Shown here: positions 504-6,905 of the stretch, piece after piece
How positions within the stretch are numbered: position 1 is the first letter of the stretch
Layout of the letters: the number at the start of each line of letters is the position of its first letter
Assembly: GCA_903642235.1 (NCBI GenBank)
Contig: CAHJWL010000003.1
Span: 310,001-374,000 of the forward strand
DNA: 64,000 nucleotides
Origin: Acidobacteriaceae bacterium
Lineage (GTDB): Bacteria; Acidobacteriota; Terriglobia; Terriglobales; Acidobacteriaceae
Direction of reading: 5' to 3'
Notes under the pieces: model-generated
The model's database searches: none
Seen by the model: the letters and a program-made list of their open reading frames with translations, nothing else
Told to the model about the DNA's origin: nothing
Made by a program: the position numbers and the translations under genes

Positions 504-866
504 CTAGGCCTTCAAATAGTACTCGTCGATAACTGCTGCTGCCTGTTCCCGATTGCCCTGCTTTTCGTGCCGTACAACCCGCCCACGGCAGTGAATCTCT
601 ACGTCATTCGCCGATCCCATAATGTCGGACGGCATTTCAATCGTAAACTCAATCACGCTATCAACATGGGGCAGACGGTCTCCCACAAACAGGAGTCCGT
701 TCGCGGAGATGTCTTCTGTAACGGCTTCAAACTCATCGTTGTTGGCCCGCACGTGAATCGCCAGCTTCACGGGAAAGCGCACTGCTGAGCGCAACGGGTT
801 CTCCCCCGTCGCCTTCTTCCACTGATTCAACTCTGATCGTCGCGATTCCGAGTGTGACACGTCCAT
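504..866 (-). CDS. PilZ domain protein (c-di-GMP receptor)
   Basis: This 120-residue single-domain protein has both PilZ signatures: an RxxxR (RSAVR, about residues 26-30) and a D-x-S-x-x-G (DISANG, about residues 68-73), the two elements that bind cyclic di-GMP. ATG 866 is preceded by GAAGGG at normal distance. No other domain fits in the length, so it would act as a soluble adaptor passing the c-di-GMP signal to a partner. It lies 71 nt downstream of the ATP-grasp-like gene and 4 nt upstream of an atypical response regulator. The nearest plausible process is exopolysaccharide or motility control, but no partner is identified by sequence. Confidence 0.85.
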   Translation of the reverse strand: MDVSHSESRRSELNQWKKATGENPLRSAVRFPVKLAIHVRANNDEFEAVTEDISANGLLFVGDRLPHVDSVIEFTIEMPSDIMGSANDVEIHCRGRVVRHEKQGNREQAAAVIDEYYLKA

Positions 867-937: not shown

Positions 938-2170
938 CTAAGCACCAGCGGTCAGATAGAACGCCGCCGACCCGCCAACCCAGGCCTGATCCCGGTTCTG
1001 GTCCACACCCATCATCAGGCCTCGCCCCAAACGCGCCATGCTGATCACCGGCTGCATCTCACCGGCATCCGGCCAGACATACATGATGCGCACCTCCGCC
1101 CGCGTCGGTCCATGCGGCGTTGCAATAACAGGCGCAAAGCGGACGCGCTCCTGCAGGAGATAGCTCGACCGCTGCTCAGGCGCAATCGCCAGCAGGTCCT
1201 CAATTGTCGGCGCAAACTGGATTCCCTTCCCCGCAAAGGAAAAAAGCGGCTTCAGCAGCACTTCGCTGAGGTCCAACGGCAAGCAGCTCCGGTCCGCCAT
1301 CCAGGCGTCCAGGAAGACCGCCCGGGGCACCATCGGGTGCTCGAGAAATGGGAGTGAGAACTTACTCGCGCGAAAGTACCAGTTCGGATGTCCGGCCCAC
1401 GTGACATCAAGCTCTCCCTGCATGTTGAATCCCGCCTGGACACCCTCGCGTTCCATTTCATCTGCGATCGCCCGATTGAAGATCCGTCGTATCGGCATCC
1501 ATCGGCCGTCGCGGTGGTACTCCAGCCGCCGTCCGGTCTGCCGCACCTGTGTGATATCCACAGTGCGCACGCCTAGCTTGCCTTCATAGATCTGGAAGTC
1601 AGCTCTCGTCTTCTGCAACTCCGGCGTGACCTCGAGCAGCACGACCTCGGCAGGGTCGTGCCCAGCCACGATGACTTCGTTTAGTACCCGCCAGTAGCTT
1701 GTCTCGTCATGGCCGCCCAGATGCCAGCGCAGACTCGGATCGAGTGCGTATACCTCCATGTGAGAACGCGCCAGCACATCCTGAAAGCCGAAGATCGACG
1801 GAAAAGCCTGCATCTCGACCAGGCGAATACCCAGATCTCCATCCGGCTCGCGAACGAAGCCGAAGTCGGCTGTCATGAAGTGCGGCGGCATCACACCGTC
1901 AGGTTCCGGCAGGCGGTACCGCTCCGGGATCGCCTCTGTGCTGGCCCGTATATACTCCGGGCTCGCCAGCAGCTGAAGCGTAAGCTCCCTGCCGGTGTCC
2001 ACCATGCGACCCAGCAGAGCCTCCGGCAGAAAGACTGGTGTCTCCGCTATGCGAAAACTGACCGGCATCCGAACCGCGGACTCGACTGTTTGCCGAAGTC
2101 GACCGTACTCTTCCTCCGTGTACCGCGCATTGAAGTCACGCCGCAGACTCTCGATCATCCGACCCTTCAC
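938..2170 (-). CDS. ATP-grasp-like protein of unknown function
   Basis: I do not recognise the 410-residue family by name. The C-terminal part has an ATP-grasp look: LLKP (Lys307), a glycine-rich FAGKGI (Lys315), a hinge-like YLLQER (Gln340-Glu341) and AEVRIM (Glu359, Arg361), candidates for nucleotide and Mg contacts. An earlier acidic motif, RLVEMQAFPS (about 116-125), recalls the E-x-N/Q element of circularly permuted ATP-grasp enzymes. No signal peptide is visible. The gene follows the M29-like peptidase by 20 nt and closes a four-gene run that also codes a GCS2 ligase and another ATP-grasp, so a second amide-bond-forming step is the best guess. Start GTG 2170 or ATG 2158; both have SD-like GAAGGG upstream. 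Confidence 0.6.
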   Translation of the reverse strand: MKGRMIESLRRDFNARYTEEEYGRLRQTVESAVRMPVSFRIAETPVFLPEALLGRMVDTGRELTLQLLASPEYIRASTEAIPERYRLPEPDGVMPPHFMTADFGFVREPDGDLGIRLVEMQAFPSIFGFQDVLARSHMEVYALDPSLRWHLGGHDETSYWRVLNEVIVAGHDPAEVVLLEVTPELQKTRADFQIYEGKLGVRTVDITQVRQTGRRLEYHRDGRWMPIRRIFNRAIADEMEREGVQAGFNMQGELDVTWAGHPNWYFRASKFSLPFLEHPMVPRAVFLDAWMADRSCLPLDLSEVLLKPLFSFAGKGIQFAPTIEDLLAIAPEQRSSYLLQERVRFAPVIATPHGPTRAEVRIMYVWPDAGEMQPVISMARLGRGLMMGVDQNRDQAWVGGSAAFYLTAGA

Positions 2171-2190
2171 CCTTCCTCTCGATAGCGAAC

Positions 2191-3261
2191 TTACCCTTCG
2201 AGCAGAAAAATGCCGTCCTTCATGATCAGTTCCTCCCCGGTCGCATCGCCCAGCCAGATATTGAAACCAAGTCCCACGACATCGATGTGTGTGGAGGACT
2301 TCCAGGGCGCTCCGGTGTGCGCACCGTACGGGTCGCCGAAAGCAATGTGAACGCCGGGAAACTTCTCGTCTTGCAGGATATTGCCGATCACCTTCTTCAC
2401 CCCGATATTGGTTCCGATGGCGAACTCACCCACCCGGTCAGAGTTCGCGTCCATGTGTGTATAGGCCCAGAACTCGCGTTCAAGCGCTTTGTTGTCCGAT
2501 TTGACCCGCGTGATCCGGTTGCCTTCGATGTGAATCGTCAGCGGCGTCTCCTGAAGAAGTCCGAAGCGTTCACAGAGAAAATCTCCGACGACGCCATCGA
2601 CCACAAAGACGCCATTCACCTCTGCCGGTGCCGTGAAGCACTCGCCGCCCGGCAGGTTTCCCCACTTTTCGCGGCTGATGATGCCGGATGTCTTAAACCA
2701 GCGGTACTCGGACGTGAGCTCCACATGTAAATCCGTGCCCGCCGGCGTGGTGGCGCGAACATAGGTCGCCCGCCGCACGCGATCGAGCACCGCCTGGCTC
2801 AAGCGGTCGACCGCCGCAAAGTCCGCACACATGCCCTCCACCATGACCTCTGGAGTAATGTTCACCATATGGGCGTGCCGCATCTTGCGGCGATTCACGA
2901 CGTCGGTCATCTGCATGCGGCTGCGTAGTTCGTTCGGCTGCACTGTCACCGCGAAGATGCTTACATCCGAGCTCTCCATATCCGTGAGCACAGCCGAGGG
3001 CATCTCGAGACACGGCCGCGCTGCTAGTTCCTCCAGCAGAAAGCCACTCCACCGGCAGCCGGCCCGATCGAGCGCCTTCGCCAGTGAGGCCGCAATCTCC
3101 CTGCAGCTTTGGTCGGCGATCACCGTTACCTTCTCTTCGGGCTGCACGCGCAGGCAGGTCTCCACTGCGTTCCGCGCACCGGGATCAAACGCTGCAGGGT
3201 ACACAATCTCCCGCAGATCCGTTCTTTGTCGTACCGCCTCTTCGCTCATCGCCTCAAACAA
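2191..3261 (-). CDS. M29-like metallo-aminopeptidase
   Basis: This 356-residue protein matches the thermophilic aminopeptidase (AmpS/PepS, M29) fold in its C-terminal half. The likely two-metal ligands are in the correct order: GGE (Glu207), GEF (Glu279), HIAFGDP (His305) and HID (His325, Asp327). The enzyme would remove N-terminal residues from peptides in the cytoplasm. It is shorter than typical M29 enzymes (about 410). TTG 3261 has GAGGTG 5 nt upstream; ATG 3249 is an alternative. It sits between two ligase-type genes in one orientation, so it may trim or recycle the product those ligases build rather than serve general protein turnover; that is inference. Confidence 0.78.
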   Translation of the reverse strand: MFEAMSEEAVRQRTDLREIVYPAAFDPGARNAVETCLRVQPEEKVTVIADQSCREIAASLAKALDRAGCRWSGFLLEELAARPCLEMPSAVLTDMESSDVSIFAVTVQPNELRSRMQMTDVVNRRKMRHAHMVNITPEVMVEGMCADFAAVDRLSQAVLDRVRRATYVRATTPAGTDLHVELTSEYRWFKTSGIISREKWGNLPGGECFTAPAEVNGVFVVDGVVGDFLCERFGLLQETPLTIHIEGNRITRVKSDNKALEREFWAYTHMDANSDRVGEFAIGTNIGVKKVIGNILQDEKFPGVHIAFGDPYGAHTGAPWKSSTHIDVVGLGFNIWLGDATGEELIMKDGIFLLEG

Positions 3262-3399
3262 TCTCGCACCTCATCTGCACGTTCTCATCCGCCCTTGGCT
3301 GCGGGCCCTTGCGTCGCTTCTCTGCTCTGATGCAACGCTGCACTATTCCCTCGCCCAGGCCGCTATCGCACGCACATCCTGCGGTCAGAGGCGTGCCCC

Positions 3400-4506
3400 T
3401 CACGAGAGACCTATGCGCGTCTCGGCCGCCATAAAGTCCACCACATCCCGCAGATTGCCGGTCTCACGGAAGACCTTCAGCTGCCGATCGGCCCCCGAGC
3501 CCTGCTCAAGCATCTGCCGCACGTAGCCGATCTCTCGTTCACTTCCAAGCGCCCGCATCTCGTCTCCAACAAAGTTCAGGTACTCATCAATCAGCGAGCG
3601 CAGCGGAACCTCCTCCTGCTTGCCGAAGTCAATCAGCTTGCCCTCCAGCCCGTAGCGCACGGCACGAAACTTGTTCTCCATCAGCAGAGCGCGCGAGTAC
3701 TGCCGGTAATCGACGTTCAGCGAGTGCAGTCGCCACAGAGTGGCCGCCGTCGCCTGAATCAGTGCCGCGATCGCAATGGACTCCTCGGCCCGCAGTGGGA
3801 TATCGCAGATTCTGACCTCGATGGTGTTGAAGAACGGGTGCGGCCGGATGTCCCACCAGATCTTCTTTGCATTGTCGATGCAACCGGTCTTGATCAGCAG
3901 CGCCACGTAGCTTTCAAACTCCGAGTAGCTGGCAAATGCATCCGGCAGATTCGTCCTTGGGAAATGCTCGAAGACCTTGGCCCGGTAACTCTTGTAACCC
4001 GTCTCCATGCCCTGCCAGAACGGAGAGTTCGTCGAGAGCGCCAGAATATGCGGCAGGAAGTAGCGCAGAGAGTTCATCACCCGGATTGCCGCTTCCTTAT
4101 CCTCGATCCCGACATGCACATGCAACCCGAAGATCAGGTTCGATCGCGCAACAAGTTGTAGATCTTCAACCACCTGCGCGTAGCGCGGATCGGGGTAGAT
4201 CTCCTGCGAGCGCCAGTCGGCAAACGGATGCGTCGCTCCGGCCACCAGCATCAAGCCATGCTCCTCGGCCAGCCGCACCATGTTCCGCCGCAGGTCATAC
4301 AGATCCTCTGCCGCCTCCTGAATGTTCTTGCAGACGCGTGTGCCTACCTCGATCACAGACTGGTGCATCTCGGCCTTGACACGCTCCTCAAGCCGCCGCC
4401 TGCCCTGCGCCAGCATCTCCGTTGCGATATGCGACCGCAGATCGCGCGTCTCCGGGTCTACTGTCTGGTACTCCTCTTCAATTCCAAGCGTGAAGCTGGG
4501 CTGCAT
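3400..4506 (-). CDS. GCS2-family carboxylate-amine ligase (YbdK type)
   Basis: The N-terminus LGIEEEYQTVDPETRDL is the hallmark of the YbdK branch of the GCS2 glutamate-cysteine ligase superfamily, which joins a carboxylate to an amine using ATP. Length (about 368 residues) is normal. Further family features include a His-containing VHVGIED segment and the WWDIRPHP-x-x-NTIEVR block of the active site. The true substrate cannot be read from sequence; E. coli YbdK shows only weak glutamate-cysteine ligase activity. ATG 4506 has GAGAG upstream and is preferred over GTG 4518. It is second in the four-gene run, 52 nt after the tailed ATP-grasp gene. Confidence 0.88.
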   Translation of the reverse strand: MQPSFTLGIEEEYQTVDPETRDLRSHIATEMLAQGRRRLEERVKAEMHQSVIEVGTRVCKNIQEAAEDLYDLRRNMVRLAEEHGLMLVAGATHPFADWRSQEIYPDPRYAQVVEDLQLVARSNLIFGLHVHVGIEDKEAAIRVMNSLRYFLPHILALSTNSPFWQGMETGYKSYRAKVFEHFPRTNLPDAFASYSEFESYVALLIKTGCIDNAKKIWWDIRPHPFFNTIEVRICDIPLRAEESIAIAALIQATAATLWRLHSLNVDYRQYSRALLMENKFRAVRYGLEGKLIDFGKQEEVPLRSLIDEYLNFVGDEMRALGSEREIGYVRQMLEQGSGADRQLKVFRETGNLRDVVDFMAAETRIGLS

Positions 4507-4558
4507 CGCATCTCTCACTCGGCTGATCGCACCGTTCCTGCTGCTCCATTGCTCTTGC

Positions 4559-5674
4559 CTAGGACTTCTTCTGCGCCGGATCTTTCACTTTCCTGCCGGT
4601 ACCACGTCTCTTGGCTGCCCCCTCCCCTTTTGGGGAAGAGGCGTTGACCGGAGCTGCGATCTTCTTTGCCGAAGCCGCACCTCTGGAAGGAGAGCTCCTC
4701 TTCGGCGCAACAGCTTTCACCTTTCCCGCCACGCCCGGCTCTCCGTTCAGCAGATTCAGGCAGCGAATCTCGCTTCGCTGGCTTGGAACCGCATGCGCCT
4801 TCTCAACCGTCAGACGCGCTACGGCATTCACGATCCAGTTGAAGTTCTCCTGGCCAACCGAGTAGAAGTCGGCGTCCGGTGCCGGGTTCATGAAGTCAAT
4901 CGCATACGGCACACCATCCTCAACGGCAAACTCGACCGTATTCAGGTCGTATCCCAGCGCGCGGCAGAGCGTCAGAGCATCACGCTCCACGCGTGCGAGC
5001 AGAGCCGGATCGTAGGGCGACGGCTCCTGAATGTAACGTTGCTCATGCGGGCGGCGCGGATCATAGGGCATGATCCGCACCTCCTTCTGCCCGACCACAT
5101 AGCAGCGGAAGTATTCGTCGAAGTTCACTGCCGCCTGCAGCGTCATGCACAGATCACGCGTCAGATCGTAGGACCGGAAGAACTCCTCCCGATCATGTAC
5201 ATGGAACACGTCGCGCCATCCCCCGCCATCATGCGGCTTCAGAAACGCAGGAAACCCGATGTACTCGAAGATGGCCTCCCAGTTCAGCGGGTACTCCATG
5301 TTCCGCAGCGACGCCGTATTGATCTGTGGCGGATAGTTCTTGTGCGGCAGCAAAACTGTCCTTGGCACCGCCACACCTAGCGTCTGCGCCAGAGCATAGT
5401 TGAAGAACTTGTCATCCGCCGACCACCAGAAGGGATTGTTGATCACCTCCGTCCCTGTCAGCACGGCATTCTTCAGGTAGGCCCGATAGAACGGCATCTC
5501 GTGCGAAATCCGGTCGACGATTACGGCATACCCGCATGCTTCTGCCATGGTGACCGCTCCGAGCTTCACTGGCTCAGCGCAGATGCCATCAACTCCCATC
5601 GAGTTAATCCGATCCACCAAAGCACCCGGAAACGTGTTCTCCACCCCGAATAGCACACCGATCTTCTTCATCAT
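4559..5674 (-). CDS. RimK-like ATP-grasp ligase with Lys/Ala/Pro/Ser-rich C-terminal tail
   Basis: Residues 1-300 form an ATP-grasp enzyme: Lys89 in the SADDKF motif, Lys146 in FLKPHDGGGW, the Mg-binding end EFAVEDG...AIDFMNP (Glu248, Asp260, Asn263). Members ligate a carboxylate to an amine through an acyl phosphate. From about residue 312 to 371 (bases 4562-4740) the protein changes to a disordered, strongly basic tail of AAPKR/KKIAAP/KRRGTGRK type, reminiscent of histone H1-like tails and absent from usual family members. It is the first gene of the run, starting ATG ATG at 5674 after GAAAGAGAG. The tail may bind nucleic acid or polyphosphate, or be itself modified; both are guesses. Confidence 0.8.
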   Translation of the reverse strand: MMKKIGVLFGVENTFPGALVDRINSMGVDGICAEPVKLGAVTMAEACGYAVIVDRISHEMPFYRAYLKNAVLTGTEVINNPFWWSADDKFFNYALAQTLGVAVPRTVLLPHKNYPPQINTASLRNMEYPLNWEAIFEYIGFPAFLKPHDGGGWRDVFHVHDREEFFRSYDLTRDLCMTLQAAVNFDEYFRCYVVGQKEVRIMPYDPRRPHEQRYIQEPSPYDPALLARVERDALTLCRALGYDLNTVEFAVEDGVPYAIDFMNPAPDADFYSVGQENFNWIVNAVARLTVEKAHAVPSQRSEIRCLNLLNGEPGVAGKVKAVAPKRSSPSRGAASAKKIAAPVNASSPKGEGAAKRRGTGRKVKDPAQKKS

Positions 5675-5963
5675 CCGACTCTCTTTCTCTGCTCCGCTAC
5701 TCCCGCTCCATACAGGAAGCTCTACTCCCCGCGGCTGCCCCGACTGACAAGGCGTCCGCAGTCTCCGTACACGCTGAACTTTTCTTCACCTGCACGTCAC
5801 TGGCATACCCTCGCTCGAACGCCGGCAGAGATCACGTTGTCCCTCGAAAGTTGTCACCGGGACACGAAAGTTATCTCGGTTCGGCTGCCTGGCAAACCTT
5901 ATTGGGAGTGCTCTGCTTACCCTTGGTGGAGGAGAAACGTTTCACTCTGGGCTATCCTAGCGC

Positions 5964-6905
5964 ATGGAAACACGGCCATTGCAGCCGGCAGCCTCTATCA
6001 ATCCAGACGATCCAAGTTCTCAACGAGACCCGTCCCTGGAACCCGGTGCGGACGAGAGAGTACCCAGCGTGACACCCCATTTGGTTCCGGCTGCCGTTCT
6101 GAATCCGGCTCTCGCGGCGAATACTCGCTACCAGCTTCGCGCCCTGCAGGACGCCTCCCTCTCCGCTGATCGCGCCATATCGATCTATCTGCCGGTCGCG
6201 TACTTCGCTGAGCCTGATCGCCGCTTTCCCGTCTTCTACCTCCAGGATGGCCAGAACCTCTTCGACGGCATGACCTCTTATCTCCCCGGGCACACCTGGC
6301 GCGCCCACAGCACAGCCGATCGTCTGACCGAGATCGGCTGCATCGAGCCCATCATCCTGGTTGGCGTGGCGAACGCAGGAGACCAGCGCATGCCGGAGTA
6401 CACGCCCGTCGCCGATCCGCAGTTGGGCGGTGGCCGCGGCCCGCTCTACGGCCGGCTCTTGCTGGATACTCTCAAGCCGCTTATCGATGAGGAATTTCGC
6501 ACGCTCCCGGACGCTCCTCACACAGCGCTCGGTGGCTCCTCTCTGGGCGGCTTGATCTCTCTTTTTCTTGCGCTCGAGCATCGCGACCGTATCGGCAGAA
6601 TCGCCGTGCTCTCACCCTCTCTCTGGTGGAACGGCCGCAGCATTCTTCGGCTTGCACGGCGCGCCAACATCCATCCCCCGCTTTCGATCTGGCTCGACAT
6701 CGGCACTGCGGAAGGGTCTCACCATCTTCGCGACAGCGATCTGCTCTTCAGCATCCTCGTTGATCGCGGCTGGGAAGAGGGCCGTACTCTCGTCTACCAA
6801 CGGGTGCTTGGCGGTTTGCATAACGAAGACGCCTGGGCGGATCGCTTCGGCGATATTCTTGCTTTCCTCTTCCCGGCAGATCGTCCGGCTATCCTCGAAT
6901 CCTGA
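5964..6905 (+). CDS. Alpha/beta-hydrolase putative esterase (Fes/IroE-type, PF00756)
   Basis: This 313-residue protein has the esterase-D like fold: FYLQDGQNLFD, then the nucleophile elbow GGSSLGG, LSPSLWW after it, DIGTAEG, and the catalytic His in GGLHNEDAW. The first 34 residues are polar and low in conservation, so translation could instead begin at GTG 6066. From ATG 5964 there is no SD, but a TATCCT hexamer ends 6 nt before the ATG, so a leaderless message is possible. It is divergent from the ATP-grasp/GCS2 cluster across about 290 nt and could hydrolyse an ester or amide of that product. No signal peptide is evident, so cytoplasmic. Confidence 0.83.
   Translation: METRPLQPAASINPDDPSSQRDPSLEPGADERVPSVTPHLVPAAVLNPALAANTRYQLRALQDASLSADRAISIYLPVAYFAEPDRRFPVFYLQDGQNLFDGMTSYLPGHTWRAHSTADRLTEIGCIEPIILVGVANAGDQRMPEYTPVADPQLGGGRGPLYGRLLLDTLKPLIDEEFRTLPDAPHTALGGSSLGGLISLFLALEHRDRIGRIAVLSPSLWWNGRSILRLARRANIHPPLSIWLDIGTAEGSHHLRDSDLLFSILVDRGWEEGRTLVYQRVLGGLHNEDAWADRFGDILAFLFPADRPAILES

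Follow-up and report, generated by a model that had tools for sequence, protein, structure and literature searches.

The window analyzed here, a 64,000-nucleotide stretch of an Acidobacteriaceae bacterium genome (GenBank assembly GCA_903642235.1, contig CAHJWL010000003.1, positions 310,001 to 374,000; 3.79 Mb in 29 contigs), carries near its start a compact group of genes for the predicted joining and cleavage of amide bonds. The original prediction had described four adjacent minus-strand genes (938-5674) and a divergent esterase on the plus strand (5964-6905), and all five open reading frames (ORFs) were found there. In the order of transcription, the minus-strand genes encode a 371-residue RimK/Ddl-like ATP-grasp protein with a basic, low-complexity C-terminal tail (AG371; 4559..5674), a GCS2 or YbdK-type carboxylate-amine ligase of the PRK13515 family that is expected to act as a gamma-glutamyl ligase (3400..4518), an M29-type metallo-aminopeptidase-like hydrolase (2191..3261), and a 410-residue protein, G410 (938..2170), followed by genes for a PilZ-domain protein and a LuxR-type regulator. 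Given the intergenic gaps of 40 bases (AG371-GCS2), 138 bases (GCS2-M29), and 20 bases (M29-G410), a single transcript is plausible. As detailed below, this gene set is a real, conserved acidobacterial operon.

G410 had been proposed to be an ATP-grasp-like protein of no nameable family. No family in Pfam or NCBIfam matched it at an E-value of 0.1, the Pfam families GSP_synth, CP_ATPgrasp_1, and CP_ATPgrasp_2 included, and no PDB sequence scored better than 0.032. Its ORF opens with a GTG codon at 2170; most aligned relatives start at the equivalent of Met5, so that the ATG at 2158 is likely to be the true start. An AlphaFold model built from a 20-row alignment reached a mean predicted local distance difference test (pLDDT) score of 89.9 and a predicted template modeling (pTM) score of 0.90. 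Searched with Foldseek, the model gave 24 matches at 0.001 or better (best E-value 2.5e-13), among them human and yeast glutathione synthetase, a putative glutathionylspermidine synthase, YgiC, YjfC, GspS, and Cp1B. Structural alignment with VIA-align ranked YjfC first (Z 25.8), followed by YgiC (24.9), GspS (23.8), human glutathione synthetase (23.3), and Cp1B (22.7), with 345-365 residues aligned at 12-15% identity in these five cases; the YjfC match covers model residues 1-407. The next matches were 3k1t, a putative gamma-glutamylcysteine synthetase (Z 11.6), and ordinary ATP-grasps (Z 7.4 or less), which align mostly to the C-terminal 60% of the model. Because the best matches run over the full length in permuted order, G410 is predicted to have a circularly permuted ATP-grasp fold. 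The proposed ATP-grasp identity is thus borne out by the predicted fold, in its circularly permuted kind, and the model identifies G410 as a predicted new ligase family with the fold of the glutathione synthetase, GspS, and YgiC type.

The motifs of the G410 family are in keeping with this assignment. In a distant MAFFT alignment with Escherichia coli YgiC, a cut YjfC, and Gss, residues D102, E119, Q121, K270, K307, and Q340 fall on the D...E-x-N, NK, KP, and Q positions, and these residues presumably serve in metal and ATP binding. Across 80 family rows, some of which come from the same genome, D102, E119, and Q121 are present in 80/80, K270 and K307 in 78/80 (two gaps), and Q340 in 76/80. 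G410 thus shares the D...E-x-[N/Q], NK/SK, and KP motifs with YgiC, YjfC, and Gss. However, the Asn of the E-x-N metal motif, found in all three of these proteins, is replaced by Gln121 in every row, and this substitution, as read from the alignment, appears to be a signature of the G410 family. A C-terminal motif of its own, RxGRGxMMGVDxN, further distinguishes G410 from glutathione synthetase, GspS, YgiC, YjfC, and Cp1B. YgiC and YjfC are labeled peptide-spermidine ligases in RefSeq; they are the subject of Pederick 2023, as cited in PMC12568646, and that article places Cp1B, from fungal E-64 synthesis, structurally nearest to homoglutathione synthetase and to YgiC/YjfC. No relatives of G410 were matched in viral contigs or plasmids.

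The GCS2 ligase is more readily classified. It matches PF04107 in Pfam (3.3e-70) and, over its full length, exceeds the equivalog cut-off of NF010039/PRK13515 in NCBIfam (534.7 bits against 371), and its closest PDB matches are 1tt4 (1.7e-67) and YbdK, 1r8g (2.8e-67). The GhExE motif, as defined in PMC2588565, is present, with G12, E14, E15, and E16 invariant in 27/27 sequences. In contrast to other YbdK/PRK13515 ligases, the enzyme is set beside two ATP-grasps and an amide hydrolase. A GCS2 protein together with a glutathione-synthetase fold is also the kind of minimal enzyme pair with which a diverged GshA and GshB would carry out ordinary glutathione biosynthesis. However, the GCS2 scores as PRK13515 and lies under the cut-offs of the glutamate-cysteine ligase models (e.g., NF010043, 371.9 against 409; gshA_cyano, 81.5 against 249), and among the proteins of the window, to which the search was limited, none reached a GshA or GshB equivalog cut-off. 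Moreover, the family models do not recognize G410 as a glutathione synthetase, Gln stands in for Asn in 80/80 rows of its family, and such a pathway would leave the third ligase and the hydrolase without a task. The bacillithiol enzyme BshC occurs in 120/121 genomes of the class and makes glutathione unlikely as the main thiol. Taken together, glutathione biosynthesis is a very improbable explanation of the operon. On account of the same BshC distribution, the cluster was also rejected as the sole thiol route.

AG371 has no Pfam match at 0.1; it is similar to the RimK family model TIGR00768 (8.1e-6, far under the cut-off) and, in the PDB, to the D-Ala-D-Ala ligase 3r23 (5.8e-6). Its C-terminal tail (window positions 4559-4790) is basic and rich in Lys, Ala, and Ser; tails of this type and of variable length occur in several relatives and are lacking in others. 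The weak RimK-family score favors a different view of the operon, in which the ligases would act on a protein or a small ribosomal precursor peptide by tagging or cross-linking it, in a graspetide-like or RimK-like manner, before maturation by the peptidase; in line with this, the Pup ligase PafA is listed among the relatives of GCS2 in PMC2588565. Nevertheless, some genomes offer no room for a precursor (at locus L036, GCS2, M29, and G410 are separated by gaps of 0 and 2 bases according to the gene calls), and no conserved small gene was noticed, with no search made for precursors of fewer than 60 codons. Modification of a protein or ribosomal peptide is therefore regarded as rather unlikely. 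A role in defense was rejected, as none of seven proteins had a PADLOC match at 0.01.

The M29 protein matches PF02073 above the cut-off (9.6e-14), with the best stretch confined to residues 165-315. Aligned to AmpS and NicX, its putative active-site residues E207, E279, H305, Y312, H325, and D327 are invariant in 25/25 sequences, and they correspond to the two-metal ligand set of M29 (Glu, Glu, His, His, and Asp) and the catalytic Tyr. By sequence, the closest PDB chain is that of NicX, a dioxygenase (7cn3, 8.6e-5), followed by AmpS (1zjc, 1.8e-4). A NicX-like dioxygenase was nevertheless rejected; E207 and E279 are invariant, and at the corresponding positions NicX lacks a Glu. Because the aminopeptidase-type Glu ligands are kept, a hydrolase is preferred over a dioxygenase. 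Like the AmpT/AmpS aminopeptidases, the protein has a C-terminal catalytic domain in which every putative metal ligand and the Tyr are kept; its N-terminal half, by contrast, has diverged from theirs. A plasmid search returned five distant matches (25-29% identity).

Co-occurrence of the four genes was examined in 121 genomes of the class, with counts taken from tblastn and profile searches and gene order also from a gene caller that misses some genes (e.g., GCS2 at L175). At 0.001 or better, G410 was matched in 25 genomes, M29 in 35, GCS2 in 40, and AG371 in 36. After weak rows were left out (1 G410, 5 M29, 9 GCS2, and 2 AG371 genomes), close matches numbered 24, 30, 31, and 34, respectively, one of those for AG371 being a contig-end fragment. 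The distribution is nested: the 30 genomes with M29 fall within the 31 with GCS2, which in turn fall within the 34 with AG371, and all 24 genomes with G410 have GCS2. Members with and without the cluster also occur within one genus. The genes for GCS2, M29, and G410 lie together (1.6 kb or less, or one gene, between them) in 15 of these 24; in the other nine, G410 is located elsewhere (seven), M29 is substituted (one), or the set is split over contigs (one). Pairwise distances are correlated at r 0.95-0.96 among GCS2, M29, and AG371 and at 0.62-0.87 between G410 and those three, values that stem from 16-25 genomes per pair and would be accounted for in part by shared descent.

A survey of database loci gave a similar picture. 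An AG371 profile retrieved at least 576 relatives from GTDB genomes, and the best 80 loci were used, many of them cut by contig ends and two being a duplicate in one genome. All but one carry acidobacterial names; the exception, L133, is labeled Rhodanobacteraceae, has the full cluster and acidobacterial-looking flanks, and is probably mislabeled or part of a mixed bin. The genes found near AG371 were GCS2 (65), a second esterase, F4 (56), M29 (53), the esterase of the window (38), G410 (35), and an aldo/keto reductase, PilZ, and LuxR (16 each). GCS2 and M29 both lie within 10 kb of AG371 in 53/80 loci, in the order AG371-GCS2-M29(-G410) in 52 of the 53 and on one strand in 51, and all four genes are present in 34/80. 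They stand at one place in, for example, Granulicella aggregans (L086), Granulicella paludicola (L087), and Bryocella elongata (L084). This clustering across the 80 loci exceeds chance. The neighborhood survey called for by the original prediction thus finds that the four genes co-occur and mostly stay together, both in class genomes and in database loci.

Two positions in the operon can be filled by other families. In seven class genomes in which G410 was not found, a different protein, of about 440 residues when complete, lies between AG371 and M29; the one member tested matches CP_ATPgrasp_2 (PF14403, 2.3e-9) and CP_ATPgrasp_1 (7.7e-6). With this CP_ATPgrasp_2-like family, whose class count is read from the seven loci, a circularly permuted ATP-grasp is present in 31/31 class genomes with close GCS2 (G410 in 24, the other family in 7). 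Likewise, the usual place of M29, between GCS2 and G410, is taken by a protein of 310-358 residues at L046, L177, L186, and L188 and, by coordinates, in genome G159. This substitute has no Pfam match. Its model (pLDDT 83.4) shows a class-I glutamine amidotransferase fold, with Arabidopsis gamma-glutamyl peptidase 1 as the best Foldseek match (9.6e-11), and a Cys-His-Glu triad (Cys137, His254, and Glu256) is invariant in 6/6 sequences. VIA-align scores were 17.8 for a Methylobacillus amidotransferase, 17.5 for gamma-glutamyl peptidase 1, 16.7 for homoserine O-succinyltransferase and a GMP synthase subunit, 15.8 for PuuD, and 15.4 for SpuA. Homology between M29 and its substitute was rejected (hhalign probability 0.3%). 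In the class set, the substitute occurs in G002, which is without M29, with one weak match in G013. Among 297 genomes of the phylum, close M29 was found in 23 (E-value below 1e-100) and the substitute in 16 (below 1e-40), with an overlap of 0. PMC2588565 mentions a ligase family of GCS2 size that adjoins a thiol peptidase of amidotransferase-like type, which parallels the substitute slot.

The replacement of M29 by a gamma-glutamyl-peptidase-like fold raises the alternative of transient gamma-glutamylation, in which GCS2 would cap an amine, another enzyme would alter it, and the hydrolase would remove the glutamate, the ATP-grasps serving neighboring steps. The Puu route of putrescine use provides a precedent for such a cycle, and the matches of the substitute to PuuD and SpuA, as well as the aldo/keto reductase in 16/80 loci, are consistent with it. 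However, the nine annotated recurring neighbor families, beside which many others were left unannotated, include no oxidase or aldehyde dehydrogenase, and the cycle has no need of two more ATP-grasp ligases. We therefore consider transient gamma-glutamylation unlikely, if the strongest of the alternatives weighed here, and favor the stepwise synthesis of an amide-linked metabolite.

Across the phylum, the coupling was followed in the same 297 genomes, from which weak matches were left out (4 G410, 68 M29, and 3 substitute genomes, and 14 weak or partial for GCS2). Strong GCS2 is present in 21/23 M29 genomes. In 6 of the 12 genomes that hold both GCS2 and the substitute, the two genes lie within 300 bases of each other on the same strand, two of the genomes (G181 and G319) being without any G410 match. 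The CP_ATPgrasp_2-like family was sought in all 56 strong-GCS2 genomes lacking close G410 and in 24 controls drawn from the 193 genomes without a GCS2 match. Strong matches were obtained in 31/56 against 1/24 and weaker ones in 2/56 against 1/24, the controls having been hand-picked, with 15 from the genus or family of the window, and not matched to the 56 by kinship. Coordinates put the gene on the strand of GCS2 and no more than 1.2 kb from it in 14 of the 31. GCS2 and a circularly permuted ATP-grasp are thus a recurring pair in the phylum, but their coupling is weaker than in the class.

Several observations weigh against a single, tightly coupled pathway. In the class, AG371 occurs without GCS2 in three genomes (G033, G072, and G091), and G410 lies away from GCS2 in 7/24. 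The 37 phylum genomes with close G410 include 34 with strong GCS2, one with a truncated copy (G257), and two in which none was found (G210 and G279); 21 have M29 and 12 the substitute, whereas four (G188, G333, G373, and G388) have neither hydrolase. Strong GCS2 accompanies the substitute in only 12/16 genomes, and one substitute genome, G279, also has a distant M29 relative (9.9e-9). Furthermore, 25 of the 56 GCS2 genomes without G410 are also without a strong CP_ATPgrasp_2-like match, and 23 show neither kind of permuted ATP-grasp at 0.001, although for one of them, G252, the contig breaks off right after M29. The profiles of G410 and the CP_ATPgrasp_2-like family match weakly (hhalign probability 29%, E-value 5.9e-4), with NR/RR, LKP, and QER stretches in register; therefore, the case for a shared role is built on position and fold class. 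As for the M29 substitute, its modeled fold lies near many amidotransferases and homoserine transsuccinylase (Z 15-17.8), so that it might supply ammonia or have another role. With so many comparable matches, the fold alone cannot decide between a peptidase and an ammonia donor.

Some loci appear to have lost or to be losing the cluster. At L065 (G033) and L110 (a database metagenome-assembled genome), the S16-F4-AG371-PilZ-LuxR frame is kept and GCS2, M29, and G410 are gone, as if by block loss. At L194 (G257:C33), M29 looks intact next to a truncated GCS2 and a G410 gene with a broken frame, and the cluster seems to be decaying. Terriglobus roseus DSM 18391 (NC_018014.1) contains two 21-kb AG371 regions (L080 and L081), 99.97% identical and about 460 kb apart, which point to a recent large duplication carrying AG371, GCS2, and M29; no G410 is present in either stretch.

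The divergent esterase of the window is an alpha/beta-hydrolase (PF00756, 4.8e-27). The second esterase, F4 (about 236 residues), is absent from the window locus; no clear remnant was seen at 5675-5963, and the home genome gave no match at 0.001, an empty result that is uninformative by itself. The aldo/keto reductase (e.g., L028:7627-8586) usually stands beside M29 where it occurs and was not seen in the window. The PilZ-domain gene 3' of G410 (504..866, minus strand) may be a passenger; of the 35 database loci with G410, 15 also have PilZ close to it. The LuxR-type regulator beyond it, also on the minus strand, extends past the start of the window. At some loci (L036:2309-6663 and L045:9271-13713), the stretch between AG371 and GCS2, or that directly after G410, holds resistance-nodulation-division (RND) efflux genes, which encode an AcrB-type protein together with a fusion or outer-membrane protein. 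A related AcrB-type gene was found in four class loci (L036, L037, L044, and L045) and 1/80 database loci, and RND efflux was left out of the cluster.

From these data, a pathway can be proposed, with moderate confidence, in which the operon makes a small, glutathione-type, amide-linked metabolite. In a first step, GCS2 would, judging by its family, phosphorylate the carboxylate of a side chain, with the gamma-carboxylate of glutamate as the likeliest candidate, and join it to an amine. G410, given its predicted fold, may then activate the free carboxylate of the GCS2 product and attach a second amine, much as glutathione synthetase attaches glycine and GspS and YgiC attach spermidine. AG371 would form a further peptide-type bond, before, between, or after the other steps. 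Lastly, M29, or the gamma-glutamyl-peptidase-like thiol hydrolase in other lineages, would cut an amide of the product or of an intermediate, for trimming, maturation, or recycling. The esterases would be accessory. The original interpretation, that the set builds and trims an amide-linked compound, fits these findings and is supported overall, the ATP-grasp identity of G410 and the four-gene co-occurrence having both been upheld; its suggestion that the esterase possibly releases the compound is the weakest part, with the esterase recurring in 38/80 loci.

Both replaceable slots, that of G410 and that of M29, look as if they were defined by chemistry. That either M29 or a gamma-glutamyl-peptidase-like fold can fill the hydrolase slot suggests cleavage of an amide of the gamma-glutamyl or N-terminal aminoacyl type. 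The hydrolase slot, GCS2, and the glutathione-synthetase fold are three indirect pointers that suggest gamma-glutamyl chemistry. More tentatively, and with somewhat less assurance than the pathway itself, the product may be an undescribed glutathione-like metabolite, namely a gamma-glutamyl compound that carries a second amine (e.g., a polyamine) as its cap; the capping would be done by the G410 family with its Gln metal site and the trimming by either of two unrelated hydrolases.

Amidoligase neighborhoods in which ATP-grasp and GCS2-type ligases stand beside peptidases were reportedly described by Iyer and colleagues in 2009 through comparative genomics, and among the titles and abstracts listed by searches, with subscription journals mostly outside their coverage, no paper on the present gene set was seen. 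The operon belongs to the known amidoligase-plus-peptidase kind, to which it adds a new ligase family. Computationally, it is characterized by a conserved gene set, its folds, conserved putative catalytic residues, and the replacement of two slots by other families. Acidobacteriota belong to the most abundant bacteria of soil and to the least understood. For these organisms, the conserved operon of ligases and a hydrolase, with one ligase family unmatched in Pfam and NCBIfam, points to a metabolite that could be found by metabolomics of cultivated strains, and the two slot replacements offer specific, testable predictions on the reactions that the pathway needs.

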